Below, one piece after another: positions 4,352 through 43,134 of a DNA stretch of 64,000 bases. The notes beneath the pieces were generated by a model that saw only the letters and a program-made list of their open reading frames with translations, was not told the origin of the DNA and did not search any database. Made by a program: the position numbers and the translations under genes. The first letter of the stretch is position 1. Each line of letters opens with the position of its first letter. Origin of the DNA: Oscillospiraceae bacterium (GTDB lineage Bacteria > Bacillota > Clostridia > Oscillospirales > Oscillospiraceae); contig CAJTCG010000018.1 in the NCBI GenBank assembly GCA_910574635.1, positions 1 to 64,000 of the forward strand. Direction: 5' to 3'.

Positions 4352-4438
4352 AGCCCCATGCGCAGCTGCGCCCTCTTATCAGGGGGAATCCCCTTCTCAT
4401 CCCATATACGAGCACATACTTGAAAGGAGATTACTGAA

Positions 4439-5617
4439 ATGAAAAGAAGACTGCTCACCATGATCCTCTCCGCCGTCATGCTGGCGGCCTGCCTCACCGG
4501 CTGCGGCGGCAAGGCCGGCGATTCCGGCAATTCCGGCGACGCCGGGTCCGGCGGAAAGAAAGCCGTCAGCCTCTGGGCCACCGGCTCCGACAACGTCCGG
4601 GAGATTTTTGAAGCGCTTGTCAGCGACTTCAACACCAATTCCGAGTACGCCGGCCAGTACGAGGTCACCCTCCAGTTCATGCTCTCCGGCACCGGTGCCC
4701 AGACCCTGGCCGACATGCTGGCCGCCGCCTCCAAGGCCGGTCAGACCAACACGGACTACGACATCGTGGACCTCAGCGGCGACGACCTTTCCAAGCTGGT
4801 TTCCCTCATCGGCCAAGAGCAGTTCGTAAAGCTGGACAGCTCCAAGATTCCCAACGCCGCGTCTGTGGAAGCAAAGAGCTCCATCGCCACGGATTACTGC
4901 CAGCCCTACCGCGGCACCACCGTCATCCTGGCCTATGACTCCGCCAAGGTTCCCACCCCGCCCGCCACCATGGACGAGCTGGTGGCGTGGATGAAGGCCA
5001 ACCCCGGCCGCTTCGCCTACAACACTCCCGGCACCGGCGGCGCCGGCGACTCCTTCGCCCGTTCCTCCGTGTACAACTTCCTGCCGGAGGAGGCCTTTAC
5101 CTCCGACGACGAGAAGTGGATCGGCGAGTGGGACGAGGGCTTCAACTTCCTGAAGGAAATCCATCCCTACATCTATTCCTCCGGCGGCTCCGTCGTCTAC
5201 CCCAACAAGAACCAGGGCACCCTGGATCTGCTGAACCAGGGCGAGATCGACATGTGCCCCAACTGGGCGGACATGGTCCTTTCTCAGCGGGCTTCCGGCG
5301 AGATTAAGGACAGCATTAAAATCACTCAGATCGACCCCGCCCTCACCGGCTCCCTCCAGTCCCTGGTCATCCCCACCTTCGGCTCCAATACCGACGGTGC
5401 TTATGCGTTCATGAACTACATGCTCTCCCCCGCCGCCCAGGAGCTGATGGTCAAGCAGATGGCCGCCATCCCCCTGATCGACGCCTCCAGCATGGACATG
5501 ACCGGCTATGAGGACCTCCAGGGCCTGGACGTGTCCAACTTCCGCCTCCAGTCCATCGGCGGCCTGTCCACCTCTTTCAACGAGCGCTGGGACAGCGAAA
5601 TCGCCACCATCGGCTGA
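4439..5617 (+). CDS. Extracellular solute-binding lipoprotein
   Basis: A 392-residue protein with a lipoprotein signal peptide: basic MKRR start, hydrophobic core and lipobox LTGC with Cys22 as lipidation site, then a Gly/Ser/Asp linker. The mature part has a cluster-D-type binding fold (RGTTVILAYDSAKVP... , ...NQGEIDMCPNW..., AFMNYMLSPAAQE near the end), as in spermidine or phosphonate binding proteins. It captures the substrate outside the membrane for the flanking permeases. The AAAGGAGAT ribosome site is 6-14 bases before the ATG. With the glycerophosphodiesterases downstream, a glycerophosphodiester ligand is possible but unproven. Confidence 0.87.
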   Translation: MKRRLLTMILSAVMLAACLTGCGGKAGDSGNSGDAGSGGKKAVSLWATGSDNVREIFEALVSDFNTNSEYAGQYEVTLQFMLSGTGAQTLADMLAAASKAGQTNTDYDIVDLSGDDLSKLVSLIGQEQFVKLDSSKIPNAASVEAKSSIATDYCQPYRGTTVILAYDSAKVPTPPATMDELVAWMKANPGRFAYNTPGTGGAGDSFARSSVYNFLPEEAFTSDDEKWIGEWDEGFNFLKEIHPYIYSSGGSVVYPNKNQGTLDLLNQGEIDMCPNWADMVLSQRASGEIKDSIKITQIDPALTGSLQSLVIPTFGSNTDGAYAFMNYMLSPAAQELMVKQMAAIPLIDASSMDMTGYEDLQGLDVSNFRLQSIGGLSTSFNERWDSEIATIG

Positions 5618-5652
5618 ACAAGGCCGTAATTCACGCGAATGAAGGGGATGCT

Positions 5653-6498
5653 ATGAGTAAAAACCTGAAGCGAAATCTGGTGGCCTACGGCCTGGTGCTG
5701 CCGGCGTTCCTCGTCGTCATGCTGACCGTGGCTTACCCGATTGTCCTGGCGGTGATTCAAAGCTTCCAGGACTCCAAGACCGGCGAGTTTACGCTGGACA
5801 ACTACACCTACTTCTTCACCGAACCGGCCCAGCTGAAAAACATCCTGTATACCCTGTACGTGTGCCTGATGACCGTGGCCATCGCCATTGTGGTGGCCTA
5901 TCTGCTGGCGCTGTACCTGCGCTTTGTCCGGTCTAAGATTGCCAAGACCATCGGTACGCTGTACCTGGTTCCCCGCTTCGTTCCCGCCATGTGCGCCGTG
6001 TACGCCATGATCACCATCATCCGGGACTCCGGCCTCATCAACCGCATCGGACTGGTGTTCGGGCACGACGTAAAGCTGGGATTGATGTACCATGCCAACG
6101 GCATGATTATGATGAACCTCTGGTTCAACATCCCGTTTGCCGCGCTGATGATTACGGCCGGCCTCGGCGCCATCCCCGATTCCATCATCGAGGGCGCCCG
6201 GGACGTGGGAGCCAGCAAGTTCAAGGTGTTCACCTCCATGATTCTGCCGCTGTCCATCAAGGACGTGGTCGTGGCGGCCACCTTTGTGTTCATGTCCAAC
6301 GTGGGTTCTTTCACCACGCCCTATTTGATGGGCGGAAGCGCCCCCAAGATGCTGGGCATCGCCCTGTTCGACCAGTTCAACAAGTACCTGGCCTACAATC
6401 GCTCCGCGGCCTTGTCGGTCATTATGTTCCTCATCTGCTCCGTCTCCGCCGGCGTGTATATCTACACCAACCTGAAGGAAAACGAGTGGGAAAAGTGA
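5653..6498 (+). CDS. ABC transporter permease, second subunit
   Basis: A 281-residue polytopic membrane protein with six hydrophobic segments. The EAA loop reads EGARDVGASKFKVFTSMILP. It pairs with the permease at 2516; binding protein and ATPase lie between them. GAAGGGGATGCT precedes the ATG. A strong GC hairpin (6506-6538) follows the stop codon and may protect or end the transporter mRNA before the enzyme genes. Confidence 0.87.
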   Translation: MSKNLKRNLVAYGLVLPAFLVVMLTVAYPIVLAVIQSFQDSKTGEFTLDNYTYFFTEPAQLKNILYTLYVCLMTVAIAIVVAYLLALYLRFVRSKIAKTIGTLYLVPRFVPAMCAVYAMITIIRDSGLINRIGLVFGHDVKLGLMYHANGMIMMNLWFNIPFAALMITAGLGAIPDSIIEGARDVGASKFKVFTSMILPLSIKDVVVAATFVFMSNVGSFTTPYLMGGSAPKMLGIALFDQFNKYLAYNRSAALSVIMFLICSVSAGVYIYTNLKENEWEK

Positions 6499-6505
6499 CC
6501 ATCAA

Positions 6506-6538
6506 AACCGGCGGAGGGGCTCAGCCCTTCCGCCGGTT
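6506..6538 (+). terminator. GC-rich hairpin after the transporter genes
   Basis: AACCGGCGGA and TCCGCCGGTT form a 10-bp stem, with a further GGGCT/AGCCC pairing inside. There is no T-run, so it may act as an mRNA-processing or weak termination element between the importer and the downstream enzymes. Confidence 0.4.
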
Positions 6539-6659
6539 CGGCCCCACGCGAAATGAGGACGCGGGAGTCAGGAATTAAAAAGCGGAAAAGGCCGCAAGTT
6601 CGAAGGGTTCCCCATTCCTAGAGCAGTTCCCGGAAATCATGAGAAAAAGGAGAGGCATT

Positions 6660-7331
6660 ATGGAAACGCTTATTACCGCTCACACAGGGGCGGACGGCAG
6701 GCCGGATAACAGCCTGGAATTTGTGGAGTATGCCCTGGGCTGCGGGGCGGACACGCTGGAGGTGGACGTCCGCCGCCTGCCCGGCGGGAACGGGAGCGAG
6801 ACCCTGGCCATCGGGCACGACCAGGTGGGAGCGCAGGCGCCCCGGCTGGCGGAGGTTCTGCGGATGACGGCGGCCCGGCCCGGCGTGAACATCAATTGCG
6901 ACCTCAAGGAGCCGGGACTGGAGGCGGCGGTCTGCCGCCTGGCGGAGGAAGCCGGCCTCTCTGGCCGGCTGATTCTCTCCGGGACGGTGGACGCCGCCGC
7001 CCCCGCTCTCGGTGCCGAGGTCTATCTGAACATGGAGGAATACGTTCCCGGCCTCTACCTCAGCTACCGGGAAAAGCCGGACTTTGAACTGGAGGCGGCG
7101 GAAAAAATCATCGCCGTCTGCCAGAAAGCCGGCATCCGTACGGTTAACATCTACCAGGGCCTGGTAACCCGGCGGCTGGCCGAAACCCTGGGCCGGGCGG
7201 GCGTCGGCCTGTCGGTCTGGACCGTCAACGAAGCCTGGGAGCTGAAATGGTTCCTGTCCCTGGGAGTCCGGAACATCACCACCCGGCGGCCCGCCCTGGC
7301 CCTTTGCCTGCGGGAGGGCCGGGAGCCATGA
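6660..7331 (+). CDS. Glycerophosphodiester phosphodiesterase, atypical
   Basis: A 223-residue GDPD-family TIM barrel that should hydrolyse glycerophosphodiesters to glycerol-3-phosphate and an alcohol. The family pattern is visible: N-terminal AH, then the metal-binding E and D in TLEVDVRRL, then IGHDQ, and NINCDLKEPG for the second metal site. The usual HRG is HTG here, so a conserved Arg is replaced by Thr, and the NT after the first loop is NS. Activity may be altered. The start at 6660 follows AAAGGAGAGG; upstream codons lack a ribosome site. The stop overlaps the next gene's start (ATGA). Confidence 0.78.
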   Translation: METLITAHTGADGRPDNSLEFVEYALGCGADTLEVDVRRLPGGNGSETLAIGHDQVGAQAPRLAEVLRMTAARPGVNINCDLKEPGLEAAVCRLAEEAGLSGRLILSGTVDAAAPALGAEVYLNMEEYVPGLYLSYREKPDFELEAAEKIIAVCQKAGIRTVNIYQGLVTRRLAETLGRAGVGLSVWTVNEAWELKWFLSLGVRNITTRRPALALCLREGREP

Positions 7332-7942
7332 GGCCCGGCCTTCCGGACCGGAGCGTTCCCTTTTACAACCTGATTCTCCGCCTCGACCACTGGCAGAGGC
7401 GGGACCCTGTTTTGCCAGAGGGCTTCCGGCTGCGCTTTTACCAGCCGGGGGACGAGGCGGCCTGGGCGGCTTTGGAATACGGAATCGGGGATTTTGACCC
7501 TCAGGAGGAGGCCCGGGCCTATTTTGCCCAGACCTACGGCTCCCACGCCCAAGACCTGGCCCGGCGCTGCCTTTTCGCCGTGGACGGCGGAGGGCGGGTG
7601 GCCGGGACCTGCAGCGCCTGGCGGGACCCCAGGGGCGGCGGGGAGGTCGCCTCTCTCCACTGGCTGGCGGTATCTCCGGAGGCCCAGGGCCGGGGCCTGG
7701 GAAAGGCCCTCTGCCGGGAGGCCTTGGCCGTATTTCAGGACCTGGGGGAGTTCCCCGTCTATATCCATACCCAGCCCTGGAGCTGGAAGGCGCTGCTCCT
7801 GTATGTCCGGGAGGGCTTCAAGATCCAGCGGACGGATTCCTTCGCCGCTTATGAGAACCAGTATCAACAGGGCATGGAGACCCTCCGGGACCTGCTGCCC
7901 CGTGACCTCTACGCCGAGCTGTTCCGGTGTTCCCAGGACTAG
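7328..7942 (+). CDS. GNAT-family N-acetyltransferase
   Basis: A 204-residue protein whose middle carries the acetyl-CoA site: LAVSPEAQGRGLGKALCREAL fits the Q/R-x-x-G-x-G/A loop, preceded by the strand ASLHWL. The C-terminal YVREGFKIQ is also typical of GNAT folds. The ATG overlaps the TGA of the phosphodiesterase, so the two are translationally coupled. Its acceptor is unknown; coupling suggests a small molecule released from glycerophosphodiesters, such as an amino alcohol, which is speculative. The frame is open upstream but no other start has a ribosome site. Confidence 0.82.
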   Translation: MRPGLPDRSVPFYNLILRLDHWQRRDPVLPEGFRLRFYQPGDEAAWAALEYGIGDFDPQEEARAYFAQTYGSHAQDLARRCLFAVDGGGRVAGTCSAWRDPRGGGEVASLHWLAVSPEAQGRGLGKALCREALAVFQDLGEFPVYIHTQPWSWKALLLYVREGFKIQRTDSFAAYENQYQQGMETLRDLLPRDLYAELFRCSQD

Positions 7943-10785: not shown

Positions 10786-10802
10786 GAAGGAGGAACAGCA
10801 TT

Positions 10803-11975
10803 ATGGATTACGCGAAGGAATCCCTCCGGCTCCACGGCGAGTGGAAGGGTAAGATTGAGGTCGTGACTACCGTCCCCGTGGAGACCAAGGACGATCTGAG
10901 CCTGGCCTACACCCCCGGCGTGGCCCAGCCCTGCCTGGAAATTCAAAAGGACGTGAGTAAGAGCTATGAGCTCACCCGGCGGCACAACCTCTGCGCCGTC
11001 ATCACCGATGGCTCCGCCGTCCTGGGCCTGGGAGACATCGGCCCCGAGGCGGGCATGCCCGTCATGGAGGGCAAATGCGTGCTCTTCAAGGCTTTTGGCG
11101 ATGTGGACGCCTTCCCCCTGTGCGTGAAGACCCACGACGTGGACGAGTTCGTCAACGCCGTGTGGCTGATGTCCGGGTCCTTCGGCGGCATCAACCTGGA
11201 GGATATCGCCGCCCCCCGGTGCTTTGAAATCGAGCGGAAGCTGAAGGAAAAGTGCGACATCCCCATCTTCCACGACGACCAGCACGGGACGGCCATCATC
11301 ACCCTGGCGGGCCTGACCAACGCGCTGAAGGTGGTAGGCAAGAAAAGGGAAGACGTGAAGGTGGTCACCTCCGGCGCGGGGGCCGCCGCCATCTCCATCG
11401 TAAAGCTGCTGCTGTCCGCGGGCTTTAAAAACGTCACCATGTGCGACCGGAAGGGCGCGATTTACCAGGGCCGGGAGGGTTTGAACTGGATTAAGGAGGA
11501 GATGGCCCAGGTGACAAACCTGGAGAAGAAGCCGGGAACCCTGGCTGATGCCCTGGTGGGTGCAGACGTGTTCATCGGTGTCTCCGCCCCGGGGACCGTC
11601 ACCACGGAAATGGTGAAAACCATGAACAAAGACGCCATCGTCTTCGCCTGCGCCAACCCCACGCCGGAGATTTTCCCCGACGAGGCCAAGGCCGGCGGCG
11701 CGGCGGTGGTATCCACGGGCCGCAGCGACTTCCCCAACCAGATCAACAACGTCCTGGCTTTCCCGGGCGTGTTCCGGGGGACCTTCGACGTCCGGGCCAG
11801 CGACATCAACGAGGAGATGAAAATGGCCGCCGCCCAGGCGCTGGCCGGGCTGATCTCCGACGAGGAGCTGACCGCCGACTATATCATCCCCAAGGCCTTT
11901 GACAAGCGGGTTGGCCCCGCTGTCGCCAAGGCTGTGGCCGATGCCGCCCGGAAGTCCGGCGTGGCCCGGCTGTAA
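10803..11975 (+). CDS. NAD(P)-dependent malic enzyme
   Basis: A 390-residue protein of the short bacterial malic enzyme type, decarboxylating malate to pyruvate. Motifs: LAYTPGVAQPCLEI at residues 33-46 with the catalytic Tyr, ITDGSAVLGLGDIGPEAGMPVMEGK for substrate and metal binding, FHDDQHGTAI with the metal-binding Asp, and the nucleotide fold VVTSGAGAAAISIVKLL. DFPNQINNVLAFPGVFRGT near the C-terminus is also typical. AAGGAGGAACAGCATT precedes the ATG. It forms an operon with the 2-hydroxy-acid dehydrogenase; together they could interconvert lactate or malate and pyruvate for fermentation. Confidence 0.92.
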   Translation: MDYAKESLRLHGEWKGKIEVVTTVPVETKDDLSLAYTPGVAQPCLEIQKDVSKSYELTRRHNLCAVITDGSAVLGLGDIGPEAGMPVMEGKCVLFKAFGDVDAFPLCVKTHDVDEFVNAVWLMSGSFGGINLEDIAAPRCFEIERKLKEKCDIPIFHDDQHGTAIITLAGLTNALKVVGKKREDVKVVTSGAGAAAISIVKLLLSAGFKNVTMCDRKGAIYQGREGLNWIKEEMAQVTNLEKKPGTLADALVGADVFIGVSAPGTVTTEMVKTMNKDAIVFACANPTPEIFPDEAKAGGAAVVSTGRSDFPNQINNVLAFPGVFRGTFDVRASDINEEMKMAAAQALAGLISDEELTADYIIPKAFDKRVGPAVAKAVADAARKSGVARL

Positions 11976-34111: not shown

Positions 34112-34338
34112 AAATTTCCGATTTCTGCCGTCAGACCGGGGAGCCGGTCTATATCACCCGCAACGGGGCGGGGGACATGGTGGTGGTCAGCATGGAGGCT
34201 TACGAACGCCAGCAGGCCCTGATCGACCTGTACGGAAAGCTGGCCGTGGCGGAACAGGAGATCGCCTCCGGCGCGGAGGGGGAAGACTTTCTGACCTTCG
34301 CCCGCCGGTTGAGGGAGTCTGTACATGGAGCGGTATAA
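34112..34338 (+). pseudogene. Phd/YefM-type antitoxin, N-terminally truncated
   Basis: From about 34112 the plus strand reads NEISDFCRQTGEPVYITRNG, then AGDMVVVSMEAYERQQALID, and ends ...RRLRESVHGAV. This is the body of a Phd/YefM antitoxin with the MVVVSMEAYE motif. The N-terminal dozen residues and the start codon are lost where the ATPase remnant begins; a stop lies upstream in frame. It overlaps the toxin-like gene at 34325 in the usual antitoxin-toxin order. Confidence 0.7.
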
Positions 34339-34611
34339 GGTCAAAATCTATCCCCCCGCCCAGCAGGACCTGCAGGAGATTGTGGACTATCTCAATACCC
34401 TCTCGCCCGGTGCCGCCCTGCGGTATTACGACAAGCTGACTGAGGAGATCGCCAGCCTGTCAACCATGCCGGAGCGGTGTCCCAAGCCCCGGGATCTGGC
34501 TTTGGCGGCAAAAGGCTACCGGTATCTGATTTTTATGTCGTATCCGGAGGCACGGTGCAGATACGGTGCATCCTGTACGGCCGCAGAGATTACCGCGCAC
34601 TGCTTTGAAGT
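34325..34611 (+). pseudogene. RelE/ParE-type toxin with frameshift
   Basis: The ATG overlaps the antitoxin end. MERYKVKIYPPAQQDLQEIV, then DYLNTLSPGAALRYYDKLTE, is a ParE/RelE toxin N-terminus. After KGYRYLI the frame is wrong; the neighbouring frame continues FYVVSGGTVQIRCILYGRRD and YRALL then TGA at 34609-34611, the normal toxin ending. A small deletion around 34530 removed a few codons and shifted the frame. With the truncated antitoxin, the pair is inactive. Confidence 0.72.
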
Positions 34612-34618
34612 AAATTTG

Positions 34619-35390
34619 AGGAAGCACTGATTAAAGCAAGTAAAAGCCAGGCAAACAGACAAAGGTAAAGGAAACGTCCAACAAAGGGCCATATTCTGGG
34701 ATAAATTCCTCGCTTTTCCAGTCCCAGCCCGGTCGAAGGGCGCAAAAACCTTAGGCGGGGCATAGGGAACCGCCCGCCCTGGCAAGCATGTACAGATTTG
34801 CGCTGGCGAAGAGAACGTGTAATCGGTTAAGATTTTTTCTCAGACCCCGGTAAACGGTTTTTCGAAAACCGAAAATGTTCTTCACAATCCTGCAGGGATG
34901 CTCCACCTTGCAGCGTACGGCAGTTTTTCGGTTTTCAATATACCGCTCCCAGTCAATGGCATTGTCTGAAACCTTGAGGAACCGGCCCGGCCTGCGGTTG
35001 ATGCGGTATTCAATGGCAAAAAGCTGCGGATTGCTTTTGATTTCTGTGGCGTCTACGATGCTGCCGCCCCGCATCATCCGTCCAGCCCGCTCCAGGCAGA
35101 TGCCCTTCTCGTCCAACAGATGCCGAAAGTGCAGCAGGGTCGTGGCGTCCGGAACATCCTGCTCGAAAAAGTTGAACCCCTTAAATTTGCGCATGGCATA
35201 GCTGTCATAAATTGCGTCCTCTACTCCTTCATCGGATAAGCTGAACCAGCATTGCAGCAGATACATCCGCAGCATGGTTTCTATCTCGATCGGCGGACGC
35301 CCGCGTTTCCCGGTTGGATAGTGGGGGACGACCAGCGATACCCATTCCTCCTCCGCGCCCCCTTTCCCTTACTTTATCACATCTTTTATC
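34619..35390 (-). mobile_element. Degraded IS5-family element
   Basis: The right part (34619-34795) is the outer end shared with the window start in inverted orientation. It contains the transposase remnant 34751-35275 plus upstream codons. The two copies, 34 kb apart and in opposite orientation, could recombine to invert the intervening DNA. The left end was not clearly located; 35390 is approximate. Confidence 0.6.
34751..35371 (-). pseudogene. IS5-family transposase with internal deletion
   Basis: KRGRPPIEIETMLRMYLLQCWFSLSDEG-type residues open the preserved part (I quote only the ends: KRGRPPIEIETM and DAIYDSYAMRKFKGF). PDATTLLHFRHLLDEKG and MMRGGSIVDATEI follow. The next residues (YRINRRPGRFLKVSDNAIDW) belong to the C-terminal third, so the central DDE catalytic region is deleted. 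No start codon precedes GKRGRPP in frame before a TAA near 35370. The product cannot be active. Confidence 0.75.
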
Positions 35391-35484
35391 ATTTGGGGGG
35401 ATTAAATCAGCGTTTCCCAAAGTTTTCAACCCGCTTGAACCCGGTAAAATCGGGGTCAATAGTAACAAACTGATAACACTGAAT

Positions 35485-35682
35485 TTACAGCCGTTTGGCA
35501 TAGTCCAGGCTGACCCACCCGGCCCCGCTTTTCAGCTTGCCCCATTTGGTGGTCCCCTTGCCGGTGGCTTCCTCCACAATGGTATAACCCCCCGGTTTGA
35601 TATAGCCCTTGGAACCATTTTTGATGTCCATTTCGTAAAGTGTGTGGTTTAGGGTGTGAAATGCAGGTGGTTGGCCTGACAA
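35485..35682 (-). pseudogene. SH3 domain remnant of a phage-type endolysin
   Basis: KGYIKPGGYTIVEEATGKGT, then KWGKLKSGAGWVSLDYAKRL and stop, is the C-terminal half of a bacterial SH3 (SH3b) domain as found at the end of prophage amidases. There is no catalytic part. The frame's first 20 residues do not look like SH3. It may be the missing tail of the truncated endolysin gene at 42493, now 7 kb away and inverted. Confidence 0.55.
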
Positions 35683-35880
35683 ATTATTTTATAATTAGGG
35701 TAAGAAGCCGGTCTCAAACGGTTTCGGCCAACGAAAAGCCGATTTTCCCAGAATGGAAGAATCCGCTGTGAAAACCTAACGGCCAGATCGCGGCGATCGC
35801 CACACAGGCAGCGCGCGCATCCGGCAAAGCTGTCAACACGCACAGCAGGGGGTTACTAAACGATAGTGAGGAGTGCTACA

Positions 35881-36664
35881 ATGAAAAATTCACGAAACGA
35901 ACGGATCGTCTTGGATTCCTGGCGAAGATGCGCACAGGCGGGACTCTCGCCTGATTCCACCCGGCAGCTTTACCCGCTCTCGGATCAGCAGCTTAAAACG
36001 CTGTGCGAGCAGTCGCACAACGACATTTCCGCCTTTGAGTCCTGTGCGGTGCCCGCCGCCGCCAGCCTGCCAAAAGCCTCCGCGTTTCTTCTGGTCAGCC
36101 AGCAGGGAATACTACTGAAAAAAAATACCTGAACTTCCGCTTTTCCGGCTTTTCAGACCTGGTTTCTCTTTTTCCGAGGCTCATGCGGGCACCAATGCCG
36201 TTGCCCTGTCCATTCGGCACAGCGAGCCGATGTGGACCTTCCCGCAGCAAAACTACTGCACCCTTTTAACGAACTGCACCCTGTACAGCGCCCCATTCAC
36301 CCCTGATCGCTCCTCTGTCACGTTAGCCATTGTTACAAACCAAAAGCAGATATCCGAGTGGCCTCCCGTGCTGCTCCGGCAGCTGATCAGCAGCATGTCG
36401 CTGGAGCTTCGGCAGGTGACACGCTCCCACATCCGCCAGAAAACGGAGTCCATCCATTTAACCGCGCGTCAGCGGACGATTCTTCTGCGCATCGCCGGAG
36501 GCATGACCGACCGGCAGATCGCGGCCGACCTGCACATCACCCAGGAAACCGTACAGTACCACAAAAAGAACCTGTACCGCCAGCTGGACGCCGAAAACGC
36601 CGTGCGGGCCGTGGTCAAAGCACTACAGCTGGGGCTGCTCTCGCTGGAAGATCTCCCGGTTTAG
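35881..36664 (+). pseudogene. GAF-LuxR transcriptional regulator split at an A8 tract
   Basis: Frame 1 starts at ATG 35881 (GAGGAGTGCTACA upstream) and reads SWRRCAQAGLSPDSTRQLYP to FLLVSQQGILLKKNT, then stops at 36130. Reading with one A fewer in the eight-A run at 36118-36125 continues KIPELPLF..., FSEAHAGTNAVALSIRHSEP (a GAF motif), YCTLLTNCTLYSAPF, and a LuxR helix-turn-helix LTARQRTILLRIAGGMTDRQ, IAADLHITQETVQYHKKNLY. The whole is about 260 residues: AcoR-like GAF sensor plus LuxR output. The single break in a homopolymer may be a mutation, a phase switch, transcript slippage or a sequencing error. It precedes the paralogue pair. Confidence 0.75.
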
Positions 36665-36830
36665 GCGGACCCGGACTGCGGAAACCGGTAGGATTCTGCA
36701 TCGCTCAGGCAAAACTACTGAAATTAGGGAATTGAAAAAGCTTTGCGTATTTTACATAATTAGCATGAGGTTTGAACCAAAGACACCTCGTATAAGCCCG
36801 GGCAGCTCACAAGTAAGGTAGGAGGTTTTT

Positions 36831-37451
36831 ATGAGCAGCAATGTGAACATCAAATATGTCAACCACTCCATGAATCTGGATCAGCCGTCTGTATTCGTAT
36901 TCACCAAAAACGAGATCCCCAGCTTCGACGCCCTGCGGGAGGGCGTGGCCTGGCGTGTGATTAACAAGGTCGGGCGCGGCTCCTCCTGCAACTTCACCTT
37001 CCCCATCTCCACTGAAATCAGCGCCTCCTGGAACGACGGATGCTGCCGGACGGCTATGCTGCCCGCAGTCATCGGAAGCCGCTTCTGCGTCGCCAAGGAC
37101 AGCACCGGCATTGTCCTTCGGGCCGATGGAAACGCCTCCAGCACGACCTCCATCGACGTTTGCAGCGACATCCAGACCCCAGGCGGCGTCAGCGTCAGCC
37201 TGTATAAGGACGGCCGCGTGGTCATGACCAAACAGGTCGTGTCCTACAATCAGAAGGCGACCTTCGTGCTGCATCCCAAGCTGTACTGGGGCCTGGCCTC
37301 CGAGATCCAGGAGGGCGACCAGCTCAGCTCCGCGGTCCTCAACTCGGACAGCTTCTTCGAGCAAGACCTGGAAGGCGTATCCGAGGTGACGGTGGGCCTG
37401 TACGGAAACGCCGAGGACGGATACTCCTTCAAAATCGACGGCTGGAAGTGA
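36831..37451 (+). CDS. Conserved protein of unknown function, paralogue 1
   Basis: A 206-residue protein without signal peptide or membrane segment, preceded by AAGGTAGGAGGTTTTT. It reads YVNHSMNLDQPSVFVFTKNE, PSFDALREGVAWRVINKVGR, FPISTEISASWNDG, then VLHPKLYWGLASEIQEGDQL and SFFEQDLEGVSEVTVGLYGN. Alternating short hydrophobic strands suggest an all-beta sandwich. I recall similar uncharacterised proteins in other phyla but no assigned function. It lies between the GAF-LuxR regulator and a second paralogue (37543 onward). The codons for the C-terminal third are nearly identical in both genes. Confidence 0.8.
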   Translation: MSSNVNIKYVNHSMNLDQPSVFVFTKNEIPSFDALREGVAWRVINKVGRGSSCNFTFPISTEISASWNDGCCRTAMLPAVIGSRFCVAKDSTGIVLRADGNASSTTSIDVCSDIQTPGGVSVSLYKDGRVVMTKQVVSYNQKATFVLHPKLYWGLASEIQEGDQLSSAVLNSDSFFEQDLEGVSEVTVGLYGNAEDGYSFKIDGWK

Positions 37452-37542
37452 CCCCCTCCGTCCCCGGCTTCCGCTGGAGAGGTCAAATCCAGCATATCCC
37501 ACCCACCGAACTCCCAAATCTATCATGAAAGGCTGTCTAATT

Positions 37543-38163
37543 ATGAGCAATCAAATCAAAATTACTTATGTGAACCGCTCCATGAACGAGGACCTCCCCA
37601 AGATCTTCCTGTTCCTCAAGAACGAGATCCCCACCTTCGACGCGCTGAAGGACGGCGTGGCCTGGCGCGTCATCCCCGACGTGGGCCGCGGCTCCCAGTG
37701 TACGGTGACCTATCCCATCGAAACCGCGGTCAGCGCCTCCTGGAATGACCACGCCTGCCGCACCGCCATGCTCACCGCCTCCATCGGCAAACGCTACCAC
37801 ATCATAGAGGACGGGACCGGCATCACCATCGACGAGGACGGCAACGCCGGCAACACCCGCTCCATCGACGTGGCCAATGATATCCGAGTACCCGGCGGCA
37901 TCAGCGTCGATCTATACAAGGACGGGAAGCTGATGATGCGGAAAAAGACGGTGGCCTACGACCAGAAGGCGACCTTCGTGCTGCATCCCAAGCTGTATTG
38001 GGGCCTGGCCTCCGAGATTCAGGAGGGCGATCAGCTCAGCTCCGCGGTCCTCAACTCGGACAGCTTCTTCGAGCAAGACCTGGAAGGCGTGTCTGAGGTG
38101 ACGGTGGGCCTGTACGGGAATCCCGAGGAAGGCTATCGCTTTGAGGTCGAAAGCCAGAAGTAA
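37543..38163 (+). CDS. Conserved protein of unknown function, paralogue 2
   Basis: A 206-residue protein starting at ATG 37543 (MSNQIKITYVNRSMNEDLPK); an ATG at 37525 is in frame but its ribosome site is weaker than AAGGCTG-like bases allow deciding. It shares the whole layout of paralogue 1: FLFLKNEIPTFDALKDGVAW, GRGSQCTVTYPIETAVSASW, then VLHPKLYWGLASEIQEGDQL and EQDLEGVSEVTVGLYGN. The N-terminal two thirds have diverged (about 55-60 percent identity by eye), while the last third is almost identical in DNA. No catalytic motif is evident. Together with the nitrilase-like gene it may form one functional unit. Confidence 0.8.
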   Translation: MSNQIKITYVNRSMNEDLPKIFLFLKNEIPTFDALKDGVAWRVIPDVGRGSQCTVTYPIETAVSASWNDHACRTAMLTASIGKRYHIIEDGTGITIDEDGNAGNTRSIDVANDIRVPGGISVDLYKDGKLMMRKKTVAYDQKATFVLHPKLYWGLASEIQEGDQLSSAVLNSDSFFEQDLEGVSEVTVGLYGNPEEGYRFEVESQK

Positions 38164-38224
38164 GCCTGCGCCTTTGGATACCCGCTCATCGCTGCCGGAG
38201 CGGCGCTCCAGCGCTGTTTGAGGA

Positions 38225-38280
38225 AAGCCAGTCCCTCCCGGGAAGGCCGGCCGTCCGCCCGGGAAGAGACTGGCCTTTTT
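38225..38280 (+). terminator. Terminator-like hairpin between paralogue 2 and the nitrilase-like gene
   Basis: GCCAGTC and CCCGGG pair with CCCGGG and GACTGGC around a GC-rich loop, followed by CTTTTT. It ends the paralogue transcript or attenuates reading into the next gene, 70 bases on. Confidence 0.75.
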
Positions 38281-38349
38281 CTGTCTGGCCGCCGCGCCAA
38301 CAGCTGCGCGGCGTGCCAGAGCGATTTGGATATAAACGGAGTTGAATAT

Positions 38350-39777
38350 ATGCCAGAATATTCAAAAGTACAGTTTATCGCATGGGAGATCTACACCGGG
38401 GCGGTATATGGACCGTCGGGCGCGGACCATTATGCCGGCCTCGCTCCGGCGGCGGGAGACCGGCGGTTTCATGTGCTCAGCCAATGCCTGGATATCATGG
38501 CGCGCGTCGAGTTCACCCGCCGGGCCATTGAGACGGCCTATAAAAATGCGCAGGCGGATTCCGAAACACTGAAAATCTTTATGGCGCCGGAGTTCCTATA
38601 CAGAGGGGCGGCAGGGGCGTACTTCTACGACCTGCTGAACGGCTGGGAGAAGGCGCCCGCCTCCTTTGGCCCCCTGCCCGCTTATTTTAAAGGGCCTTGG
38701 GGCGGCCTGTTTGGCGAGCTGCGGGCATTGGCGGCAGAGGAGCGGTTCCAGGACTGGGTCTTTGTATTCGGCAGCGCCATAGGCGCCAGCTTTCCTCTCT
38801 CCTCCGTAATTCCCGGCGATCCCCGCTTTTCCGCTGCCACGGGCTGCAACATAGCGCTGATCCAATGCGGCGGCAGTACGCCGCGGCAGCGCGACGCCTG
38901 CTACTTCACCGAAAAGCACCTGAAGTCTGCCATTGACTTCGTGAACTTCACCCTGCGCAATGCCACGCCGCGGATACTCACCGATCAGGACATCGCCCAT
39001 GGCAGCCAGCCCACCTGGAGAATTCTGGACCGCTTGATCCAGGAGGACCCCAACGGTCTGGGCGGCTCCCTGTTCCGGTTTCCCCACCTCCGCAGAAGCG
39101 GCGGGCAGATCCTCCAGTTCGGCCTTGAGCTGTGCCTGGACCACTGCGTGGGCTATGTCACCGCCGGCGGCGCGCCCTCGCCCACCGGCCGGCTGGCTGC
39201 AGGCACAACCCTGGTGGATATCCAGCTTGTGCCCTCCTGCGGGATGTCGCTGATTCCAACCTCCCTCGCCCTCGGCCCTCGGAGCGGTCCGCGGAATTTC
39301 TCCTATGCCTTCAACTGCGATGGACTGATCCCGATAGGCGGCAGCGGCCATGACCGCAATACGCACATTCAGCTCTGGAACGAGCTTGAGAGCGGGGAAG
39401 GCTACCAAGCAAATGAAGTGGCGGTCATTCGGAGAGGCTATGCCGAAGCGGGGCATATCCCCGTCGATGCCGCCGCCGCGGATCTGTCGGCGCTGGCTCC
39501 GGCCGAGGAAATCCCGCACACCCTCAGGATCGATGTGCAAAACATTTTGGCCGGCGACCTCTGGCGCAGCCACGAGCCCTTCCGGACAGGCCAAAACAAC
39601 CACGGGCAGTTCTGGCCCCACGGACCCGGCTTCATCCGCACGCTGGACCCCCAGCCGTTGGCGGAGGCCCGTGAATCCCTGATTCCATCCGCAAATGGGG
39701 CAGGGCCGTCCCTGCCGCTGCATGAGCATCCCGCCACCGCCTTGAAGGCGCTGGCCAGCGGGGAGGAAACGAGCTGA
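38350..39777 (+). CDS. Nitrilase-superfamily (carbon-nitrogen hydrolase) protein
   Basis: A 475-residue protein with a Glu-Lys-Cys pattern of the nitrilase fold: the Glu in KIFMAPEFLYRG (about residue 80), a Lys in CYFTEKHLKSAIDF (about 197) and the Cys in FGLELCLDHCVGYV (about 263). It is larger than usual amidases, with an extra C-terminal 120 residues. These enzymes hydrolyse or condense amides and nitriles through the Cys. The ATG at 38350 follows CGGAGTTGAAT; an in-frame extension upstream crosses the terminator. Context with two unassigned beta-type paralogues and a GAF regulator is unusual. Substrate unknown. Confidence 0.72.
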   Translation: MPEYSKVQFIAWEIYTGAVYGPSGADHYAGLAPAAGDRRFHVLSQCLDIMARVEFTRRAIETAYKNAQADSETLKIFMAPEFLYRGAAGAYFYDLLNGWEKAPASFGPLPAYFKGPWGGLFGELRALAAEERFQDWVFVFGSAIGASFPLSSVIPGDPRFSAATGCNIALIQCGGSTPRQRDACYFTEKHLKSAIDFVNFTLRNATPRILTDQDIAHGSQPTWRILDRLIQEDPNGLGGSLFRFPHLRRSGGQILQFGLELCLDHCVGYVTAGGAPSPTGRLAAGTTLVDIQLVPSCGMSLIPTSLALGPRSGPRNFSYAFNCDGLIPIGGSGHDRNTHIQLWNELESGEGYQANEVAVIRRGYAEAGHIPVDAAAADLSALAPAEEIPHTLRIDVQNILAGDLWRSHEPFRTGQNNHGQFWPHGPGFIRTLDPQPLAEARESLIPSANGAGPSLPLHEHPATALKALASGEETS

Positions 39778-39971
39778 GCTTCGCGCGGCGGCCTGACCCA
39801 CCGTGCGAAGCGGCGCGGCTGAAGCAAGGCCGCGGCCCCAAGCTAACAGTTTTTTACCGGCGGAGTGCCCCTGCCCGTCCGGCGCCCTCGGAGCGGCGGC
39901 AATTTTCGTCCGTTCCGGGGGCTGCTTTTGGGCGTTTTAGCACTGCGACGCGATATTCTGCGCCCCAAAAG

Positions 39972-41169
39972 CTATATCCCCAGCATGACCGACGAATGGA
40001 ATACCTCCGCCTCATGGGTAAACTCCACGCCGCCGGAATACTTTTCCGCAATCGCCTCCACGCTGGCCAGGCCAAAGCCGCTGTGCTGGTCTTTGGTGGA
40101 CAGATAGCGGCCTGCCTCCATTTTTACGGTCCCGTTAAAGCCGTTGTCCACGGTGACCGCCAGCATCTTCCCGAAGCAGGCCATGTTGAAGCGGATAAAA
40201 CGGGCCTCGCCCTCCACCAGAAGCGCGGCGTCAAACGCGTTTTCCAGCAGGTTCCCGATCAGGACGGACAGATCAATATCCTGGACGGCCAGATCCGCCG
40301 GGATCGCAATACGCGCTGAAAAGCAGATGTCCTGCTCCGCCGACAGCATTCGATAATAGTCGGCCACCGTGTTCACCACGGCGTTATCGCACAGCTTGGG
40401 GATTTCGAGCTCCTTCGTGACCAGCAGGTAATGGTCCAAATACTGCTCCACCTCCTTTACGTTCCCGCCTTGGAGGAAGCCCTGTATCGTAATCATATGG
40501 TGTTTGAGATCATGGCGCATCCGCCGGGTTGCCTCCATATTGTTGCTGATCCGGCGGTATTGCTCCACCTGAAGGGAGAGCTGGCAATGCAGCTCGTCAT
40601 ATTTCCGCTGGGCGCTCATTTTCTCATGTGTGATGTCCAATAGCTTGAAGCAGATGCCGTTCATCGCAAAAATTGAGATCAGCAGAGCGATATAGAGAAG
40701 CAAATTCATTGGCTCATAAAGATTGAGGTAGCCGAAGCAGATCAGGCCGCTGGACAGCGCCACGCACAAAACGATGGACAGCGTGGATATGTAGATGCTC
40801 TCCCTGTTCGTAAAGCTGTCCGCCATGATTTGGTAGTGCCGCTTGAGGACGAAAAACAAAACGGGCAGGAACGCCGCGGCCGCCAGAAGCAGAATCAGCG
40901 GCGTACAAATACCACAGGAAGCAGAAAATCAGGCTCACAAAAAAAGCCATGTTGACCTTGACAAACAGCCAGGGGTCGGAGGCCGACGCACGGTGCAGCG
41001 CACATCCTGTCAGCGCGAACGCCGCCGCAAGCCCCGCAAACAGAATCAGCATAACGGCCCCGGTTTTCCGGAGGGGAAAGCGAAGCTGCCCCGCAAAAGG
41101 CTGAATGCACAGGAGCGCAAAGGGCCCAATCTGTATCAGCCAGCCGAAAAACAGTCTCCAAAAGATCAC
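39972..41169 (-). pseudogene. Agr-type sensor histidine kinase, frameshifted
   Basis: The gene starts with GTG at 41169, overlapping the regulator stop (GTGA). Frame 1 gives membrane helices (MIFWRLFFGWLIQIGPFALL..., FVKVNMAFFVSLIFCFLW) to about 40915. There one base is lost or gained and the protein continues in frame 2: CGICTPLILLLAAAAFLPVL, then RMRHDLKHHMITIQGFLQGG with the phospho-acceptor His, CDNAVVNTVADYY, IGNLLENAFDAALLV (N box) and HSGFGLASVEAIAEKYSGG. That is a GHKL kinase of the AgrC type, about 400 residues in total. The one-base break could be real or a sequence error. Confidence 0.8.
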
Positions 41170-41879
41170 TCCTCAGCCCTCCTCGCTAAACGAAAGAGAA
41201 AGCTTTGATACTGTCTTTTCAGCTCGGTCCGATTGCTTCTGGACAGCATGATCTCTGTGCCGCCTGCTAAAATTACCCGGTCAAACAGGAAGGACTCCAC
41301 AAACCGCATATTCACCACATAGCTGCGCTGCGCCCGCAGGAAAGCATCGTCCAGCTGTTCAAACAGCGCGTCCAGAGAGGTATAGGTGCGGAAGTCGCTT
41401 TTGGCGGTATGTACAATGCACAGCTTGTTCAGCACTTCGATAAACACGATCTGCTCCATCGGCACCGGAATCGTTCCCTGATTCGTCTTTATCACCAGGC
41501 TTTTCCGGGGAGGTTCCCCCAGCCGCATCAGGCACCGCTCCATCGCCTCCGCCACAGACTGGGCGCTCAGCGGCTTCGTGAGATAGTGGGCGGCGTTCAG
41601 CCGGAAGGCTTCCACGGCATACTCCCGGCTGACGGTGGTGAACACGATCTGCTGGCGGGCCAGGGCACCGGCCCGCTCCGCCGCCTCCATCCCGTTCATG
41701 CCGGGCAGGTAGATGTCCATAAAAAGAATGTCATACCGCTGAGCTGACGCCAAAAAATCCTCCCCGCCGGAAAATACATCTATGACGGCCTCCAGCCTCT
41801 TTTTTTCGCAAAATGCCTGGACCATCTCCCGCAGCAGGAGCAGCTCGTTCTTTTCATCATCACACAAAGCGATATGCAA
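41166..41879 (-). CDS. LytTR-family response regulator (AgrA-like)
   Basis: A 237-residue regulator. Receiver domain: HIALCDDEKNELLLLREMVQ, phospho-acceptor Asp in YDILFMDIYLPGMNGMEAAE, and HYLTKPLSAQSVAEAMER. C-terminal LytTR DNA-binding domain: LVIKTNQGTIPVPMEQIVFI, then YTSLDALFEQLDDAFLRAQR and SYVVNMRFVESF. I choose TTG at 41879 because GGGGAGATTGAT precedes it and it places IALCDDE at the right distance. It forms an operon with the AgrC-like kinase. No precursor peptide or AgrB gene is visible nearby. Confidence 0.88.
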   Translation of the reverse strand: MHIALCDDEKNELLLLREMVQAFCEKKRLEAVIDVFSGGEDFLASAQRYDILFMDIYLPGMNGMEAAERAGALARQQIVFTTVSREYAVEAFRLNAAHYLTKPLSAQSVAEAMERCLMRLGEPPRKSLVIKTNQGTIPVPMEQIVFIEVLNKLCIVHTAKSDFRTYTSLDALFEQLDDAFLRAQRSYVVNMRFVESFLFDRVILAGGTEIMLSRSNRTELKRQYQSFLFRLARRAEE

Positions 41880-41977
41880 ATCAATCTCCCCTTCAGACCG
41901 GCGGCGCAAAATACCGGACGTGCGCCTGTCAGTATGAGCCGGCGCGCGGCTTTTGGCCGGTCAGCGCCCCAGTACTG

Positions 41978-42013
41978 CAAAAACCCCTGTGTCCGTACCA
42001 ACACAGGAGTTTT
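41978..42013 (-). terminator. Minus-strand terminator upstream of the regulator gene
   Basis: AAAACTCCTGTGT, eight-base loop, ACACAGGGGTTTT then T, read on the minus strand. It ends about 100 bases before the regulator start, so it either ends a lost upstream gene or attenuates the two-component operon. Confidence 0.6.
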
Positions 42014-42480
42014 GGGCGGCTCACCGGATTCCTTGCTGCCGGTATTTGAAACTCAGGCCATCGGAGTCAGGGACGGGCGAATTCTAATCGACACGGATAA
42101 ATCCGACGGCACCGCCGGGAGGGGCTGGCGGTGCTGAGCCGCCTGTCCTCTTAGCCGGATCAATCGGAGTAAGGCGGAAGCATTGCTGTACCCTGGATAA
42201 GCCTTTTTACGTTTGTATTATAACACAGCAGATAAAAATTTCCATACTGATTTGGCAAAAATAATATGCCTTTCCGTAAATATGTAAGCGGAGGGAACGG
42301 CAACGTCTTGAGTGGGGGAACCGCATAGCCCGTGGCCAAGATTTGGATTTACCGGGAGCAGGGCGGCGTTCTACGCTTTCGCTGGAGGCGAGGCCGGTTT
42401 TTGGGGACTGATAAAGCACAGCGACCACAAGTATAGCGGCAGCAGCGGCACCGATGCCGGAGGCCAAGCCCCCGGCAGGA
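42014..42480. other. Intergenic, no supported gene
   Basis: About 470 bases. CACCGCC and GGCGGTG (about 42107-42130) form a hairpin. The 3' part reads like phage-derived coding debris in several frames, none with a ribosome site. It leads to the endolysin-like gene's TAGGAGA site. Confidence 0.4.
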
Positions 42481-42492
42481 TAGGAGAAAGCA

Positions 42493-43134
42493 ATGGCACA
42501 CATGAAAAGCAAAACCCTGGTCGAAAAGGCCGTTGACATCGCAAAGAACTATAAGACCCTTTATGTTATGGGCTGCTTTGGCTCGCCTATGACGGCAGCA
42601 AACAAGACCAGGTACACGCAAAATCACAGTTATAACAAAGCGGCGGCAAGGGCGGCCATGATTAAAGCCGCCACATCCGACACGTTCGGATTTGATTGCG
42701 TTAATCTAATCAAGGGCATCTTGTGGGGGTGGAGCGGCAGCAAAATCAAAACTTACGGCGGAGCTACATACCCCACGACTACCGCCATTAGCGCCGGGGC
42801 TTGCCCGGACGTTGGAGCGGACGGCATGATCGCGAGGTGTACCGGCGTCAGCACCACCGGCTGGACCTCCATGGTGCCGGGGGAGGCGGTATGGATGAGC
42901 GGACACATCGGCATTTACATCGGGGACGGGCTTGCCGTCGAGTGTACCCCGAAGTGGGAAAACAAGGTCCAGATCACCGCCGTTGGAAACATTGGAGCAA
43001 AGGCCGGGTATAACACCAGGACCTGGACCAAGCACGGCAGAATTCCCTGGGTTGACTATTCGGATCACAGCTCCGGCCCGGACACCGGCCGCCACGCCGA
43101 AAGAGGTCACAGCAAAGGACGCCCAGACTTTTAA
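42493..43134 (+). pseudogene. Phage-type endolysin (NlpC/P60-like), frameshifted and lacking its tail
   Basis: MAHMKSKTLVEKAVDIAKNY starts after TAGGAGAAAGCA. FGFDCVNLIKGILWGWSG carries the catalytic-type Cys (residue 77), and GEAVWMSGHIGIYIGDGLAV the His, as in phage cell-wall hydrolases of the NlpC/P60-like group. After RIPWVDYS a one-base shift occurs near 43075; the other frame continues ATPKEVTAKDAQTFNKTLAG, the linker to a C-terminal domain that is absent. An SH3 remnant of that kind lies at 35485-35682 on the other strand. It is a leftover of a prophage. Confidence 0.7.

Follow-up and report, generated by a model that had tools for sequence, protein, structure and literature searches.

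Does a regulator gene that is split between two reading frames, in an island of broken mobile genes, still produce a regulator, and what would that regulator control? The locus raising this question lies in a 64 kb stretch of Oscillospiraceae DNA, hereafter the window. The ORF list of the window bore out a row of four plus-strand genes, namely a regulator, two paralogues and a nitrilase-like enzyme, and the mobile surroundings were evident from a DUF772/DDE transposase fragment at 34751-35275. Using the whole window as the blastn query against a 20 kb region of Oscillibacter sp. 1-3, we found a shared block at 35613-42284, in three pieces of 94.6-98.4% identity. The flanks of this block within that 20 kb region had no match anywhere in the window, and blastn and ORF comparison showed that the block sits in different, unrelated flanks in the two Oscillibacter genomes. 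No Rfam family reached its gathering score in 35000-42600.

The first regulator frame runs on the plus strand from 35866 (or from the ATG at 35881) to 36132, giving an 83-aa N-terminal piece from that ATG and ending with a TGA at 36130-36132. The second frame (+1; 36119-36664, plus strand) encodes the remainder of the sensor with a GTNAVALS motif, followed by a LuxR-type helix-turn-helix (HTH); the ORF call for this piece, in a frame different from that of the first, covers 36230-36664. Of the original prediction of a GAF sensor with a LuxR output, the output was confirmed. PF00196 (GerE/LuxR HTH) matched the window regulator at E 9.1e-15 and its homologues in UBA1320, from another family, and in the clostridial genome G425 at 6.2e-13 and 1.3e-8, respectively, whereas neither the regulator pieces nor the intact G425 protein had a Pfam GAF match even at E<=10. 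The sensor half of the G425 homologue matched plasmid-borne sigma-54-dependent Fis-family regulators, and the N-terminal piece and the G425 sensor region aligned to sigma-54-dependent regulators at E 1e-7 to 3e-3. These activators, which we take to be AcoR-type, have the sensor region in common with the present regulator, whose output is a LuxR-type HTH; unlike them, the intact G425 regulator matched neither an AAA+ nor a Fis domain in Pfam.

The two frames meet at a run of eight A's (A8; 36118-36125, plus strand), and neither eight consecutive A's nor eight T's occur anywhere else in the window. Counting codons from the start of the run, the fifth is the zero-frame stop, and the LuxR part goes on in the +1 frame. 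UBA1320 has the same split: its first piece is likewise 83 aa long and aligns over residues 1-82 to residues 1-82 of the window piece with 35% identity, its A8 (L015, 12743-12736, minus strand) begins at codon position 1, as in the window, and its zero-frame stop is also the fifth codon from the A8 start. The second pieces, both open, share 32% identity over 177 residues. A8 is also present in Oscillibacter sp. 1-3. The split is known from only two lineages, the two Oscillibacter genomes being near relatives and UBA1320 being a MAG of 76% completeness. The G425 regulator is a single intact frame, and the 120 nt inspected there contain no stretch of five A's; no viral contig contained the regulator junction when the run was allowed 5-11 letters. 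As the A8 split is common to a distant relative, the regulator looks used rather than broken. Between the window and Oscillibacter sp. 1-3, dN/dS was 0.22 for the first piece (5 differences) and 0.23 for the second (12 differences), compared with 0.26 for the enzyme and, for paralogue 1, 0.21 over the whole gene and 0.12 over its first part. Each stretch differs at only 5 to 28 positions, and the two regulator values are weak. The few substitutions between the two genomes suggest purifying selection in both regulator frames, a reading that the conservation in UBA1320 backs up.

A junction homopolymer kept in a diverged homologue, together with two frames that both appear to be under purifying selection, is what programmed slippage leads one to expect, and suggests that the full regulator is made by programmed transcriptional slippage at A8. 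According to the report on IS1447 from Clostridium thermocellum, an A9 run slips in both directions, at ~16% each, the full product arises from +1 slippage only, and seven A's suffice (PMC6211511); there, as here, the A-run lies at the frame junction and the full product is in the +1 frame. The Shigella regulator gene mxiE is described (PMC5009743) as yielding an extended product via slippage, a regulator with a slippage-made form as proposed here. The present case differs from both in being an AcoR-LuxR hybrid regulator whose slippage is predicted from sequence, and from IS1447 in having A8 rather than A9 and no stable hairpin 5' of the run. On that side of A8, folding was not beyond chance (z +1.12 and +1.33); on the 3' side, UBA1320 has a stable hairpin (z -2.93), whereas the window shows none (z +0.40).

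We consider programmed transcriptional slippage the best explanation of the split, with phase variation as its main rival. If slipped-strand mispairing altered the length of A8 at the DNA level, individual cells would have the regulator switched on or off, and the sequenced genomes would have been caught in the off state. Such a switch ahead of a sensor would fit, and PMC3711429 notes that DNA polymerase, too, can slip on poly-A/T stretches, which could give phase variation. However, free variation should give other lengths, and all three split assemblies, two of them from near relatives, have exactly A8 with the same frame offset. Eight A's are also short for a contingency tract, which counts against phase variation, and we regard it as unlikely.

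The genes that a slippage-made regulator would control begin with paralogue 1 (36831-37451) and paralogue 2 (37543-38163, with an additional in-frame ATG at 37525), both on the plus strand and 206 aa long. They are 69% identical, and in part of the last third the DNA of paralogue 2 is near-identical to that of paralogue 1 (117/120 positions against 37251-37370). A profile search assigned them to no Pfam, NCBIfam or PHROG family; this absence of any family match is the basis for the statement that they have no export motif. Their beta-rich character held in part, the predicted secondary structure being mostly strands at low model confidence; structure prediction from five sequences gave a mean pLDDT of 36.9 and an unusable model. 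One search of PDB sequences returned nothing and another a best E of 0.62, which is chance. PixA/AidA inclusion-body proteins are small, cytosolic and often paralogous, but they were missing from the Pfam matches with E<=1 for 10 paralogue-family members. A viral origin was considered and rejected, as paralogue 1 had no match at E<=0.1 in 50,697 phage records and a family search of viral contigs yielded no relative.

Upstream of paralogue 1 lie a promoter-like site, TTGAAA-17-CATAAT (36732-36760, plus strand), of a kind hardly above chance in 35600-40000 (2 found on both strands vs 1.2 expected), and a Shine-Dalgarno-like AGGAGG, read from the sequence at 36820-36825 (plus strand), 5 nt 5' of the ATG. 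Between paralogue 2 and the enzyme, a terminator-like hairpin with a T run on its 3' side (38220-38281, plus strand) folds at -36.2 kcal/mol (z -3.33) and recurs in near-same sequence in Oscillibacter sp. 1-3; it was absent from the list produced by a consensus terminator scan. The presence of this hairpin in the gap makes a simple four-gene operon doubtful. Codon adaptation was 0.61 for both paralogues and 0.26-0.42 for the regulator pieces, the enzyme, and the kinase and response regulator of the block. As the paralogue value is near the upper quartile of window ORFs (0.62), several of which reach 0.7, it is high only relative to the block.

The enzyme gene (38350-39777, plus strand; open frame 38218-39777) encodes 475 aa from an ATG at 38350 that is backed by homologues. 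To 40 homologous stretches we added the window and L016 and removed seven rows of odd length or low score (L036, L044, both L048, L051, L053 and L055). The proposed Glu-Lys-Cys pattern was confirmed as E81, K189 and C262 in all 35 aligned rows, window included, and in 40/42 with the seven added back; five of the seven have the triad, and the exceptions are two Bacteroidales sequences (L044, L048) without Lys and Cys. The C-terminal extension was equally apparent, as most distant relatives match only to about residue 326. The enzyme belonged to no Pfam, NCBIfam or PHROG family in the profile search, and the Pfam nitrilase profile matched 0/35 alignment members at E<=0.1. Its AF2 model had a pTM of 0.80, and the top five of 57 PDB matches were nitrilase-superfamily chains (four at E<=0.001, prob 1.00; the fifth at E 0.011, prob 0.69), with query-normalised TM-scores of only 0.27-0.31. 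Judged by the triad and the fold matches, this seems to be a distant nitrilase-fold amidase. The triad is shared with the nitrilase superfamily, whose members vanin-1, N-terminal amidase and yeast Nit2 gave the best fold matches; the enzyme differs in its low identity in the fold alignments (8-12%), C-terminal extension and gene neighbours.

We then asked how far these genes travel together. The paralogue occurred in 3/149 related genomes, and the enzyme in the same three, adjacent every time, which is more than chance. The regulator and one or both paralogues occurred together in all four clostridial genomes found (three genera), confirming a recurring unit. The enzyme follows in three of these genomes (two of the three genera) and is an optional member, since it had no match in the whole G425 genome, which has the regulator and both paralogues. 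At six non-clostridial paralogue loci, neither the enzyme nor this regulator is adjacent; at one of the six, L004, only the HTH is matched, ~4.6 kb away. Outside Clostridia, 3/37 genomes with a distant enzyme relative carry a paralogue-family gene elsewhere in the genome, as did 0/2 plasmid records with the enzyme. Set against these 3/37 were 0/273 further genomes from the class to which Undibacterium fentianense belongs (Fisher p 0.0016) and 0/397 further genomes from the window's phylum (p 0.0006); as these p-values carry no control for lineage or genome size, we give them little weight. A LytTR/GHKL pair adjoins the unit in the window and G425 (25% and 37% identity); a two-component system as a unit member was rejected, as none was present among the ORFs of the 18 kb UBA1320 region. 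We found no published work on the regulator-paralogue-enzyme unit in the open-access literature.

Another reading is a bacterial conflict island whose cargo would be the pair and its third gene, the latter being an exchangeable effector delivered, stored or guarded by the pair. G425 has a DUF1906-type (Rv2525c-like) gene and a Peptidase_C58-like gene in place of the enzyme, with an eCIS_core protein 1.8 kb past the second paralogue and three eCIS_core matches in the genome, and the unrelated flanks of the block would suit such cargo. However, eCIS_core matches were present in 0/3 enzyme-holding genomes (G000, G051 and G122), on which grounds eCIS cargo was rejected; the phage records had no match to paralogue 1 and the viral contigs no relative of the family, and no toxin family (Pfam, NCBIfam, PHROG) was found in the paralogues or the enzyme. 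We therefore think a conflict island improbable.

The split could also reflect two independent products, one a small sensor piece and the other a LuxR protein translated from an internal start, and the UBA1320 second piece does have possible GTG (12757) and ATG starts. In the window, however, the second frame has no ATG, GTG or TTG between A8 and 36230, past the conserved GTNAVALS (GANAVALS in G425), although CTG, ATT or ATA could serve, and G425 has a single fused protein; two proteins thus seem quite improbable. Least probable of all is decay, with the frame break inactivating the regulator and the remaining genes running without it: broken mobile genes lie nearby and, by ORF comparison, the window has a shorter form of the block's kinase than Oscillibacter sp. 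1-3, but UBA1320 shares the split at 32-35% protein identity with both frames open and alike, and dN/dS, from few changes, is ~0.22 in both pieces.

Under programmed slippage, the unit would be a horizontally moving regulator-plus-product cassette. RNA polymerase would slip on A8, with some transcripts giving the full-length regulator and others the 83-residue sensor piece; slippage would thus hold the activator at a low level, and the sensor piece may act as its competitor. Through a promoter in the gap at 36665-36830, the full-length regulator would activate the gene pair, which would be produced in quantity, and read-through of the 38220-38281 hairpin would yield a lower enzyme level. Our guess is that the pair binds or stores a small molecule or peptide whose amide or nitrile the enzyme hydrolyses. 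We favor this account as a whole, a mobile cassette with a slippage-made regulator driving the pair and the enzyme, as a fairly probable one. A bolder version we judge less likely than not: a small-molecule-sensing regulator, full-length only through slippage and kept across families, would control an abundant, undescribed protein pair together with nitrilase-fold amidases of a new branch, and the short piece would itself be functional and competing.

The unit is a small one, rarely found, of gut bacteria, with two copies of an undescribed protein and an amidase-like enzyme. Readers or annotation pipelines would call such a regulator a pseudogene, and split regulators in mobile islands are due a homologue check before they are labelled decayed. 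Confirmation of slippage would add an environment-sensing activator from anaerobic gut bacteria to the regulators that slippage is known to produce, and would make one A-run a direct handle on two protein families named by no library searched.

The unit formed by the split regulator, two paralogues (36831-37451 and 37543-38163) and a nitrilase-like enzyme (38350-39777), all on the plus strand, is real and has no name in the libraries searched. The four genes of the original prediction were borne out as ORFs. The paralogues comprise 206 aa each and share 69% identity; for the enzyme, the start at 38350 (475 aa), where its homologues begin, was preferred. Searches of both paralogues and the enzyme against Pfam, NCBIfam and PHROGs gave no match beyond chance. 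The paralogue alignment (10 rows) had no Pfam match below E 0.12, and 0/35 rows of the enzyme alignment matched the Pfam nitrilase profile at E<=0.1.

A paralogue was found in 3 of 149 related genomes and the enzyme in the same three: the window's own, Oscillibacter sp. 1-3 and Ruminococcaceae UBA1320, a member of another family. Each of them carries regulator, paralogue(s) and enzyme in this order on one strand. Using the second regulator piece as query, we obtained matches in 68/394 genomes of the order (E<=0.001), three of which covered it almost fully: those in the window's genome, UBA1320 and G425, a clostridial genome of a third genus. The other matches listed were weak and, with one exception, restricted to the region around the HTH. 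Both paralogues adjoin the regulator in G425, and a search of this whole genome for the enzyme family found none. The paralogue is rare, occurring in 1/398 genomes of the phylum, namely that of the window, and 1/87 of G425's family. Non-clostridial relatives were plasmid-borne in Calothrix, Burkholderia and Photobacterium, and also present in Undibacterium, Pseudoduganella and one Bacteroidales genome; the stretches examined at these six loci contained neither the enzyme nor this regulator, save for an HTH-only match at the Burkholderia locus. Among 40 loci with enzyme relatives, a paralogue or regulator was seen only at the two clostridial ones, though several of the others have short flanks. 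From this distribution, the predicted association stands for the regulator and pair, the core, which recur together in 3/3 clostridial genera, but not generally for the enzyme, present in 2/3 genera and at 0/6 non-clostridial paralogue loci. A functional tie of the pair to the enzyme is a guess.

The Glu-Lys-Cys nitrilase pattern predicted for the enzyme was upheld. E81, K189 and C262 were kept in 35/35 aligned sequences, which span at least seven phyla judging from record titles, and E260 in 34/35; when seven stretches left out of the alignment were re-added, the triad was present in 40/42. Two Bacteroidales relatives (L044 and L048 9983-11869) lack the catalytic Lys and Cys and are possibly inactive homologues. 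For the predicted fold (mean pLDDT 70.8, pTM 0.80), the five top-ranked PDB matches were vanin-1 (three entries), N-terminal amidase and yeast Nit2, with low TM-scores. The enzyme is most likely a remote nitrilase-fold amidase. At a Longitalea locus (L017 8411-12675), the enzyme relative is flanked by ORFs of 505 and 482 aa, similar by eye, neither with a Pfam match above the curated cut-off.

Codon adaptation was calculated against 17 ORFs of the same genome, taken as ribosomal-protein genes. Both paralogues scored 0.61, the regulator pieces 0.26 and 0.38, the enzyme 0.39, and the kinase and response regulator of the same block 0.42 and 0.39; the median over 44 window ORFs was 0.56 (quartiles 0.48 and 0.62). 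Because of these values, the pair looks like well-expressed chromosomal genes, unlike the other genes of the block. Pair and enzyme are separated by a hairpin with a T run (z -3.33), which is nearly identical in Oscillibacter sp. 1-3. Together with codon adaptation, this suggests that the pair is abundant and the enzyme less so. In the tree, paralogue 2 groups with the second G425 copy (moderate support, 83/90), so the pair may be old. Within their last third, the paralogues share nearly identical DNA (37251-37370 and 37963-38082; 117/120 positions), a sign of gene conversion. The single paralogue gene of Oscillibacter sp. 1-3 is a hybrid of copy 1 front and copy 2 end.

Several neighbouring genes were also observed. 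A LytTR response regulator and GHKL kinase adjoin the unit (39975-41909, minus strand); the kinase, an intact 446-aa ORF in Oscillibacter sp. 1-3, is shorter in the window. A ParE-type toxin gene (34325-34630; PF05016, E 1.9e-8) lies near a transposase fragment. Around the G425 unit (L086) are an eCIS_core protein, a Peptidase_C58-like protein and two DUF1906-type (PF08924) copies (4369-6165, 6350-7129, 7156-7845 and 10797-11435). Three tandem paralogue relatives of Burkholderia stagnalis (L004 4851-8615) adjoin a phasin-like gene, whose Phasin_2 match (E 2.9e-4) falls short of the curated cut-off, and an ORF with the appearance of a depolymerase-type esterase, which had no Pfam match at E<=0.01. 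A Bacteroidales relative (L104 232-2385) adjoins a phosphatidylserine-decarboxylase-domain protein (PF02666, E 6.5e-39).

The regulator had been described as a GAF sensor with LuxR output. The intact G425 protein confirmed the LuxR HTH in Pfam, its only other match being an HTH at chance level, but gave no GAF match; the GAF label stands as a resemblance. Since this protein aligns to plasmid-borne sigma-54-dependent Fis-family regulators (residues 1-221, E 3e-3; 62-243, E 1e-7; and others), the sensor half is, by alignment, AcoR-like.

In the window, the first regulator frame starts at 35881 and ends with the TGA 36130-36132, and the second is open from after a stop at 36116-36118 up to 36664. 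The two can join only within 36119-36129, at an A8 run (36118-36125) that is the window's only homopolymer of eight A's or T's. In the second frame, a GTNAVALS motif comes before any ATG, GTG or TTG and is therefore translatable only via frame transit or an unusual start. Oscillibacter sp. 1-3 has an identical junction. UBA1320 matches the window's arrangement, with an 83-aa first piece ending in ILLKKNK, an A8 run at 12743-12736, a stop at the fifth codon from the run start and a second frame again at +1. Aligned over their whole length, the first pieces of window and UBA1320 are 35% identical; the second pieces share 32% over 177 residues. In G425, one frame encodes the entire protein, residues 6-79 matching the window's first piece and residues 84-250 its second, and no A-run occurs at the corresponding junction region.

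Ribosomal frameshifting at the usual A-rich sites goes in the -1 direction, whereas a clostridial A-run is known to slip +1 in transcription (PMC6211511); for the +1 offset seen here, a slip of RNA polymerase is therefore a better fit than a shift of the ribosome. Shigella mxiE, likewise a regulator with slippage (PMC5009743), offers a precedent. Phase variation of the regulator, the main rival account of the split, is in our estimate less probable. Decay is unlikely because the same split occurs in UBA1320 and dN/dS between the two Oscillibacter was 0.22 for the first piece (5 differences) and 0.23 for the second (12 differences), although these numbers are small. The split common to the window and a distant relative is our strongest result: what had passed for a pseudogene becomes a candidate for programmed slippage.
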